Below, piece after piece: positions 289 through 2,211 of a DNA stretch of 64,000 nucleotides. The position numbers and the translations under genes are program-made. Under the pieces are notes generated by a model. That model saw nothing but the letters and a program-made list of their open reading frames with translations. It had not been told where the DNA came from and made no database searches. Within the stretch, counting starts at the first letter, position 1, and each line of letters opens with the position of its first letter. The stretch is from positions 62,001-126,000 of the forward strand of contig CAMELV010000003.1 in the NCBI GenBank assembly GCA_945925985.1, given 5' to 3'. This stretch comes from Comamonas sp. lk. Lineage in GTDB: Bacteria; Pseudomonadota; Gammaproteobacteria; Burkholderiales; Burkholderiaceae_C.

Positions 289-2211
289 ATGAAACTCCAT
301 CCTACGGTTGAGGCTGTGACAGCCCGCATTCGCGAGCGCAGCCGCGTCTCGCGCAGCAGCTACCTGCAGCGCGTCGCCCAGGCTGGGCAGCGTCGGCCAG
401 GCGCCGAGCGCCTGGGTTGTGCCAATGTGGCGCACGCCTTTGCCGCATTGCCTGCCAATGACAAACTGCGCGTTGTGGCCGAGAAGGCGCCCAACATCGG
501 CATCGTCACCGCCTTCAATGACATGCTCTCAGCCCACGCCCCGCTGCAGCACTACCCGGACCTGATCAAGACCGAGGCGCGGCGGCTGGGCGCCACCGCG
601 CAGGTGGCCGGCGGCGTGCCGGCCATGTGCGACGGCGTGACGCAGGGCACGCCCGGCATGGAGCTCAGCCTGTTCAGCCGTGATGTGATCGCCATGGCCA
701 CCGCCGTGGCGCTCAGCCACGATGTGTTTGACGGCGCGCTGATGCTGGGCGTGTGCGACAAGATCGTGCCCGGGCTGCTGATCGGCGCCCTGCATTTTGG
801 CCACCTGCCCACGGTGTTTGTACCGGCTGGCCCCATGACCTCGGGGCTGTCCAACAACGCCAAGTCCAAGGTGCGGGAACAAGCGGCGCAAGGCCTGGTG
901 GGCCGCGCCGAACTGCTGCAGGCCGAGTCAGCCGCATACCACGGCCCGGGCACCTGCACCTTTTATGGCACGGCCAACAGCAACCAGATGCTGCTCGAAG
1001 CCATGGGCCTGCACGTGCCGGGCACCGCATTCATCAACCCTGGAGAGGATCTGCGCGAGGAACTGACCCGGGAGGCGGTGCGCACGGTCCTTGGGCGGCA
1101 AACGCCCGGCAGCGCACATGCATTGAGCGGCGAGGCCGGATTTTCCGCCGGGCCGCCCCAAGGAAAATCAGCCCCCTTGGGGGGCAGCGCAGCACACGCA
1201 GTGGCAAGCGTGGGGGCTAGCACACCCATCGGGTTGCTAGTGGACGAGGCTTGCATAGTGAACGCGATGGTGGCCCTGCTGGCCACCGGCGGATCTACCA
1301 ACCACCTGATCCACTGGGTAGCGGTGGCGCGCTCGGCTGGCATCGTGATCGACTGGGATGACTTTGCCGCCCTGTCCGACGTGGTGCCGCTGCTGAGCCG
1401 CGTTTACCCCAACGGCAGCGCCGACGTGAACCAGTTCCAGGCGGCTGGCGGCCCCGGTTTTGTGATTCGTGAGCTGCTCGACGCCGGCTTCATGCACGCC
1501 GATGTGCTGACCGTACGCAGCGGCGGCTTGCGCGAGTTCACCGGCATCCCCGAGGCGGCTGGTACTGGCCTGCGCTGGCAGACCGCCGGTGCCTCCAAAG
1601 ACGAGACTGTGGTGCGCCCGGCCAGCCAGCCGTTCAGCGCCAGCGGTGGCCTCAAGTTGCTGCAAGGGCCGCTGGGGCGGGCCGTGATCAAGGTCTCGGC
1701 CGTGCCCGAAGACCGGCACCTGATTGAGGCGCCGGCCCGCGTGTTTGACTCGCAGGACGCCTTGCAAGACGCTTTCAAGGCGGGCGAACTCGAGCGCGAC
1801 GTGGTGTGCGTGGTGCGCTGGCAGGGCCCACAGGCCAATGGCATGCCCGAGCTGCACAAGCTCACGCCCCCACTGGCGGTGTTGCAGGACCGTGGTTTTC
1901 GGGTGGCGCTGGTGACTGACGGACGCATGAGCGGCGCCTCGGGCAAAGTGCCGGCTGCCATCCATGTCTCGCCCGAAGCCGCCGACGGCGGGCCTCTGGC
2001 ACGCCTGCGAGACGGCGATGTGATCCGCCTTGACGCCGCTGCCGGTCGGCTCGAGGTGCTGGTGCCCGAGGCCGAGTGGCTGGCCCGCGAGGTGGCGGTC
2101 ATGCCCGAGCATCTGCGCGCGGCCAACGGCCTGGGCATGGGCCGCGAACTGTTTGCTGGCATGCGGCGCAGCGCCTTGACGGCAGAGCAGGGCGCCTGCA
2201 GCTGGCTGTAA
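289..2211 (+). CDS. edd: phosphogluconate dehydratase (Entner-Doudoroff pathway)
   Basis: Edd dehydrates 6-phosphogluconate to 2-keto-3-deoxy-6-phosphogluconate in the cytoplasm. The 640-residue product keeps the IlvD/Edd hallmarks: [16 protein letters not shown] near residue 113, GVCDKIVPG near 157 and [14 protein letters not shown] near 221, whose cysteines hold the iron-sulfur cluster. [12 protein letters not shown] and [20 protein letters not shown] come later. The family is usually about 600-610 residues. The excess is an insertion of roughly 30-37 residues at about 275-310, between the usual TREAVR helix and the conserved TPIG..VDE segment. That insertion is repeat DNA (see the repeat at 1138-1217). 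The reading frame stays open, so the enzyme may well be functional. The eda gene follows 34 bp downstream, evidently as one operon. Confidence 0.95.
1138..1217 (+). repeat. palindromic repeat element inserted in frame within edd
   Basis: The segment has two inverted repeats: GATTTTCC (1139-1146) with GGAAAATC (1162-1169), and GCCCCC-TTG-GGGGGC (1171-1185). Its last 28 bp (1190-1217) recur exactly, in reverse orientation, at 63824-63851 inside gcvP. The encoded peptide includes [12 protein letters not shown] and AHAVASVGA and is not part of the normal Edd protein. I recall similar palindromic sequence as common between genes in Comamonadaceae genomes, which I cannot check here. Confidence 0.75.

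Follow-up and report, generated by a model that had tools for sequence, protein, structure and literature searches.

The 81-bp segment that lies in frame in edd in the DNA described here is most likely a copy of a dispersed, hairpin-forming repeat of the Burkholderiales that is abundant and non-autonomous and belongs to the type named BRE (Beta-proteobacterial repeat element) in Bordetella and Comamonadaceae (Hot et al., 2011; PMC3110155), and we read it as working like the Rickettsia RPEs. The window analysed is a stretch of 64,000 nt from Comamonas sp. lk (CAMELV010000003.1, positions 62,001-126,000; source genome labelled G000). A first-pass annotation of this DNA had drawn attention to an exact 28-bp identity between 1190-1217 and the reverse complement of 63824-63851, and sequence comparison bears it out; by chance, ~6e-8 (uniform composition) to 4e-7 (63% GC) such 28-mer pairs would be expected in 64 kb. 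The 28-bp stretch lies in the same phase in edd and gcvP and is translated in both to AHAVASVGA, and the palindromes that had been marked in edd are present at 1139-1169 (8-bp arms, 15-nt loop) and 1171-1185 (6-bp arms). The edd copy is also the longer one, as claimed, since it is full length (81 bp) and the gcvP copy is a 28-bp 3' tail. The edd reading frame is uninterrupted across the repeat and gives a product of 640 aa. The features of the window that bear on these observations are as follows.

289..2211, + strand: edd, encoding 6-phosphogluconate dehydratase (640 aa), host with an in-frame insert (NCBIfam TIGR01196, 905 bits, over the cut-off; open reading frame).
1096..1224, + strand: extra segment of Edd, 43 aa, against a short loop in 22 of 29 genus orthologues (orthologue comparison, translation).
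1108..1136, + strand: candidate 10-aa peptide, tentatively read as an older, degenerate tail copy (inspection, inference).
1137..1217, + strand: full-length BRE-like repeat, sense, frame A (covariance-model match of 104 bits, positions 1-81 of 81, this copy itself being among the sequences used to build the model).
1139..1169, + strand: hairpin 1, its stem variable and covarying, its loop of 15 nt conserved (GCCGGGCCGCCCCAA; pair counts, 63 copies).
1171..1185, + strand: hairpin 2, GCCCCC/GGGGGC, conserved (pair counts and RNAalifold).
1192..1205, + strand: hairpin 3, GC.CAC-GCA-GTG-GC, with covariation mainly at two pairs (pair counts).
63172..64000, - strand: gcvP, glycine dehydrogenase, running off the window, locus L010 (TIGR00461; open reading frame).
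63803..63815, - strand: second tail fragment, 13 bp, CAAGCGTGGGGGC, in the same open frame (sequence match, translation).
63824..63851, - strand: tail-only copy of the element, sense, frame A, inside a length-variable GcvP loop (sequence match).

When further copies were sought in the source genome by BLAST (query 1138-1220) and with the covariance model, the model returned 13 matches below E 0.06 and a fourteenth at E 0.5, so the genome holds many copies (about 13) and not two that resemble each other by chance. By our own reading of the frames and identification of the hosts, 7 of the 13 matches are in frame within genes. The sense hosts are edd, the biotin-carboxylase subunit of an acyl-CoA carboxylase (preceded by an extra tail-only copy found by BLAST), the acetoacetyl-CoA synthetase gene (with two model matches side by side), comEC and gcvP, and the copy in aceE is antisense. 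The remaining six matches (two on C23, one on C5, one on C20, one at C1:35167 and one immediately before a guaA-like frame recognised by eye) are taken as intergenic. The large in-frame insert of the acetoacetyl-CoA synthetase (L005, C6 ~47.1 kb) consists of an GTCATTCCCGCG-type repeat, a degenerate tail copy and a full element; the sequence SFPRKRESTQSWIPASAGMTE within it presumably belongs to the GTCATTCCCGCG-type repeat family.

The anatomy of the element was read from an alignment of 63 non-redundant copies. Full copies measure 80-83 bp, tail-only partial copies also occur, and the mean GC content of element copies is 76%. In the alignment, the order is a stem closing the loop GCCGGGCCGCCCCAA, then GCCCCC-NN(N)-GGGGGC, AGCG, a small hairpin and AGCGTGGGGGC; the first stem is variable (6-9 bp) and its loop is nearly constant. 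Across these copies, 94.9% of the cells in the named structure are paired, as compared to 84.6% after shuffling, and 114 cells are changed on both sides, as compared to 25.0 in shuffles, with neither value reached in any of 500 shuffles. This covariation is borne by helices 1 and 3, helix 2 being hardly variable. The status of helix 2 is uncertain because RNAalifold pairs the GCCCCC arm with the 3' end in preference to the neighbouring arm, and the evidence for its pairing is weak because it contains no double changes. Wobble pairs are very rare in helix 1 (6 of 345) and helix 3 (4 of 306; 10 of 651 paired cells in total), from which we infer a constraint that acts on DNA hairpins, or on both strands, and not solely on RNA. 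A search of positions 900-1400 against Rfam returned just six chance-level matches, far under the gathering scores. The proposal that the variable stem arms are copies of the insertion target was dropped, as the stems form recurring subfamilies that by eye are common to several sites. In three loci (L173 in G057, L175 in G033 and L058 in G049), a second small palindrome (approximately ATCGGCCAAGGCCGATCCCGGGG, adding ~9 aa) is nested in the element tail, seemingly at an identical position across genomes; by eye, it is in frame in both biotin carboxylases among them (L173 and L175).

The element is distributed well beyond this species. Matches were found in 54 of 60 genomes of the genus (BLAST, E 0.01 or better), in 211 of 250 genomes and 127 of 141 genera of the family (covariance model, E 0.001) and in 33 of 300 genomes of the order (E 0.0001; nine from the same family and 24 from nine other families), with the family and order scans filtered more strictly than the genus scan. 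Bordetella genomosp. 2 contains a tandem array of three units of ~76 bp, tandem copies also occur at L110, at L064 and in G222, Achromobacter veterisilvae has 54 model matches, and six plasmid records of Acidovorax, Variovorax, Azoarcus, Burkholderia and Paraburkholderia carry the element. An artefact of poor assembly is unlikely, because the same insertions recur in many separate genomes.

Comparison of orthologues within the genus revealed filled and empty versions of the same sites, which upholds the proposal of a dispersed palindromic repeat. Each orthologue table comprised 30 loci; the genomes with a match numbered 48 for Edd, 52 for the biotin carboxylase and 45 for GcvP. For Edd, 29 of the 30 loci were counted, the site in G013 being unreadable. 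Of the 29, 22 have a short loop resembling TVLG-SADFK-CPPIG, four are filled (G000, G023, G029 and G038, with three stem types, the elements of G029 and G038 differing by one compensated pair), and three have longer loops that are candidate remnants (G050, G016 and G030). The biotin carboxylase carries the element in nine of 30 orthologues, in a turn between GTVEFIV and FMEMNTRLQVEHP that spans a few residues in the best solved relative (one alignment), and the other 21 are without it; by eye, the nine filled proteins represent four stem types. Host residues adjacent to the insert differ too at some of these filled sites, so insertion was not a clean splice everywhere. The GcvP loop is length-variable in the genus, with a full copy in G043, the tail in G000 and a different repeat in G049; no recognisable repeat was present in 27 of 30 orthologues, and two additional G016 loci were unreadable with the pattern used. 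The first-pass annotation had placed both inserts where relatives have no such segment or a short loop, a description that holds for Edd and also for GcvP, with the qualification that the GcvP loop varies in length, and most of the orthologues read for both enzymes are without the peptide, as opposed to carrying it universally. The repeat in the gcvP gene of G049 (L276), VHPELVEGLRPFDRLRTG, is unrelated to the element, and its peptide presumably marks a dispersed repeat of its own; its presence where G000 and G043 have the element indicates that this GcvP loop accepts several repeat families.

These distributions bear on whether the insertions are old and vertically inherited, with many losses and later changes in the stems and no recent mobility. 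The phylogeny of the biotin carboxylase leaves room for such a history, as the best tree of the 30 proteins, built with the insert left out, requires six changes, of which well supported branches impose at least four, and gains are indistinguishable from losses on it. Other observations make it unlikely: at one and the same biotin carboxylase site, G000 and G058, which are sister genomes (dS 0.24), have elements of different types with different junctions; in G016, one copy matches that of the G000 biotin carboxylase exactly and four others match it at 96-98% identity over the whole element; and copy numbers vary between genomes, six species having no match and G057 having 112 first-look candidates.

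One candidate for the mobiliser of the element is the REP-associated tyrosine transposase (Y1_Tnp, RAYT), in which case the element would be a REP. A Y1_Tnp match is present in 53 of the 60 genus genomes, commonly as a single gene of ~240 aa. However, the sole match in the source genome (L022, C53 ~5.3 kb) is flanked by AATTGGGGTCAGATTC repeats and not by the element, and the aligned copies have neither a GTAG nor a CGTC tag. The two also occur apart: seven genomes, several of them incomplete assemblies, have the element and no Y1_Tnp match (20 matches in G033, 15 in G053, seven in G052, six in G058, five in G039, three in G041 and one in G051), and six have Y1_Tnp and no element match (G006, G009, G010, G022, G040 and G045). 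It is therefore very unlikely that the element is a REP moved by a RAYT, and neither the Y1_Tnp flanks in the source genome nor the comparison of presence across 60 genomes links a transposase to it. Among flank pairs of the copies, those that share 5-mers number 17 of 84 (9.9 expected) and those that share 6-mers number seven (2.7 expected), with nothing convincing at greater lengths, so any target-site duplication is at best short and weak.

In addition to its dispersal, the element is read in frame within proteins at many sites. A total of 150 raw model hits from the genus reduced to 145 unique places under one rule, or to 135 copies with a recognisable loop and tail under another; six of the 135 lay near contig ends and were left out, as were partial copies, giving 129 classified full copies. 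Of these, 58 are in frame inside an open gene, at 26 sites, a fraction that is no unbiased census because the copies were drawn from the best hits to one in-gene copy (60 genomes of one genus, with ~18 of the weakest listed places omitted). The rest comprise 33 copies between same-strand coding stretches in different frames, 12 in the same frame with a stop, seven between opposite strands and 19 with coding on one side. Coding was judged from codon usage trained on the window; a first, stricter classifier placed nine in frame among 139 classed, and the second version, with longer flanks and softer thresholds, is the one relied upon. Site L062, one of the 26, has weak coding scores, and the script placed the second copies of L068 and L099 in the wrong site cluster, an error that affects neither the phases nor the number of sites.

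The in-frame copies mostly use one phase per orientation. Sense copies use frame A in 35 of 39 copies and 15 of 17 sites (P 5e-5 by site) and antisense copies in 18 of 19 copies and eight of nine sites (P 0.002 by site), under a null weighted by the openness of each frame. Among the 135 copies, the two frames that are used are open in 99% and 97%; the other four are open in 58-92%, that is, mostly, so stops alone do not explain the bias. Frame-A peptides are weakly charged and rich in Ala, Gly, Ser and Pro, whereas the little-used frames would encode strongly basic, Trp-rich or Cys-rich peptides. When the inner stem gains one base, the start of the peptide changes frame (GPPQG to GRPKQG) and the frame of the tail stays constant, so the constrained part is the tail. 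The right flank favours (C/T)CAT (32 of 112 distinct flanks), a possible insertion preference that could account for part of the frame bias; frame-A sites with other right flanks include edd of G000, most biotin carboxylases, KdpB and RecJ. A test based on codon positions did not clearly indicate that the peptide itself is under selection.

The host genes, named by their best NCBIfam match, encode unrelated proteins: AmgK, ComEC, PEP carboxylase, RecQ, KdpB, an RNase II-like protein, AceE, RecJ, MurD (two sites), FdhD, AroA, acyl-CoA synthetase, threonine aldolase, an SNF2 helicase, UvrD, Fmt, PutA, IcmF, BirA, GcvP, Edd, biotin carboxylase and acetoacetyl-CoA synthetase. Eight of these names (AmgK, RNase II-like, FdhD, acyl-CoA synthetase, SNF2 helicase, UvrD, IcmF and biotin carboxylase) are less sure because the matches fall under the curated cut-off, and two of the 28 proteins scanned (L108 and L133) had no NCBIfam match at 1e-20. 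MurD, AroA, Fmt and BirA are usually essential. Several hosts are DNA-processing proteins (RecQ, RecJ, UvrD, the SNF2 helicase and ComEC).

Purifying selection persists on both host genes that were tested. Between orthologues of edd and of the biotin carboxylase, whether filled or empty, dN/dS outside the insert is 0.07-0.20, and the biotin carboxylases of G000 and G058, both filled, give 0.07; this agrees with the claim that the repeat can add a peptide without killing the protein. At the cut-offs used, the source genome has a single match for Edd and a single one for GcvP. The AlphaFold2 models, of low confidence overall (mean pLDDT 48 for Edd and 50 for the biotin carboxylase), weakly suggest that the inserts are coil.

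Filling of the same loops in several species raises the prospect that in-gene copies were recruited for a function, either regulation through an mRNA hairpin or provision of a binding peptide, and a BRE-bearing region yields small RNAs in Bordetella (PMC3110155). Against this, each insert is absent from most of the relatives read, the host genes are unrelated, copies seem to decay into remnants (Edd of G050 and G016), and the rarity of G-U pairs is unlike selection at the RNA level, making recruitment very unlikely; we think that the element has no host function in these genes. It is more improbable again that the inserts are taken out ahead of protein synthesis, as an intron would be, or bypassed by the ribosome to leave normal enzymes, since the strong hairpins and the purifying selection on the hosts would fit such a process, but a reading frame would then be needless and yet length, openness and phase are all constrained.

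The course of events that we regard as likely for this BRE-type repeat is as follows. Insertion would proceed through a single-stranded or cruciform DNA intermediate, with movement performed by an enzyme encoded elsewhere. Most insertions within genes would kill the gene and then vanish, and those that survive would be multiples of three bases, in tolerant loops and in the two linker-peptide frames. Copies would afterwards decay into short peptide remnants, and in doing so lengthen and diversify enzyme loops. A broader proposal, which we regard as conceivable and somewhat doubtful, is that BRE is a selfish element with two harmless-linker frames that is mobilised by its hairpins without a REP transposase and reseeds the same surface loops across the Burkholderiales. 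If this is true, it would be among the most widespread families of protein-embedded palindromes known and a continuing source of variation in enzyme loops.

Protein-embedded palindromes are best known from the reduced, intracellular Rickettsiales, where weak selection is an obvious explanation. Here the same behaviour is found in betaproteobacteria with genomes of 2-5 Mb, in central and usually essential enzymes, so that the mode of movement and the loop diversity left behind become testable questions. It also serves as a warning for annotation, in that such loops are not domain features.

Unlike those of the RPE and WPE, the hosts of this element are not known to be obligate intracellular bacteria. 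The first-pass annotation had likened the repeat to the RPEs, and in behaviour the likeness stands: RPE and WPE share in-frame insertion, unrelated conserved genes, a conserved peptide and hosts that apparently work (PMC2229807, PMC10969869, PMC4224334). In size and anatomy it does not, since RPEs, compared here by description, are 105-146 bp with one long stem and terminal inverted repeats, and the element is ~81 bp with consecutive hairpins. In-frame intragenic palindromic repeats are also known outside Rickettsia, for example the intragenic GTAG and CGTC REPs, which are likewise read within proteins, with DNA-repair genes among their hosts (Di Nocera et al., 2013; PMC3733652). These REPs are single hairpins of 20-40 bp with terminal tags, the GTAG families being tied to tyrosine transposases (PMC3733652), and for the element neither a tag nor a link to a tyrosine transposase was found.

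The closest known system is the BRE, and the element is very probably a BRE, matched on published length, arrays and range and not letter by letter. The first-pass annotation knew of no such element in Comamonadaceae; in fact, BRE was described there in 2011. In the portion of that paper available to us, full BREs are 75-91 bp and partial ones ~40-60 bp, tandem arrays have few or no bases between units, the GC content is 69% in Bordetella, as compared to 76% here, and copies are 'usually in IGRs', with some noted within coding sequences (PMC3110155). The likeness thus extends to length, partial copies, tandem arrays, GC-richness and a range that includes Bordetella and Comamonadaceae. A literature search that covered few subscription journals found no paper on BRE by name beyond PMC3110155 and, among the matches listed, no further paper recognised as being about the element. 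The same portion of the BRE account (PMC3110155) does not deal with reading frame or phase, with host loops, or with covariation of the hairpins and recurrence, and what the present analysis adds to that account is in-frame placement at 26 sites, the bias towards two frames and recurrence at one loop.
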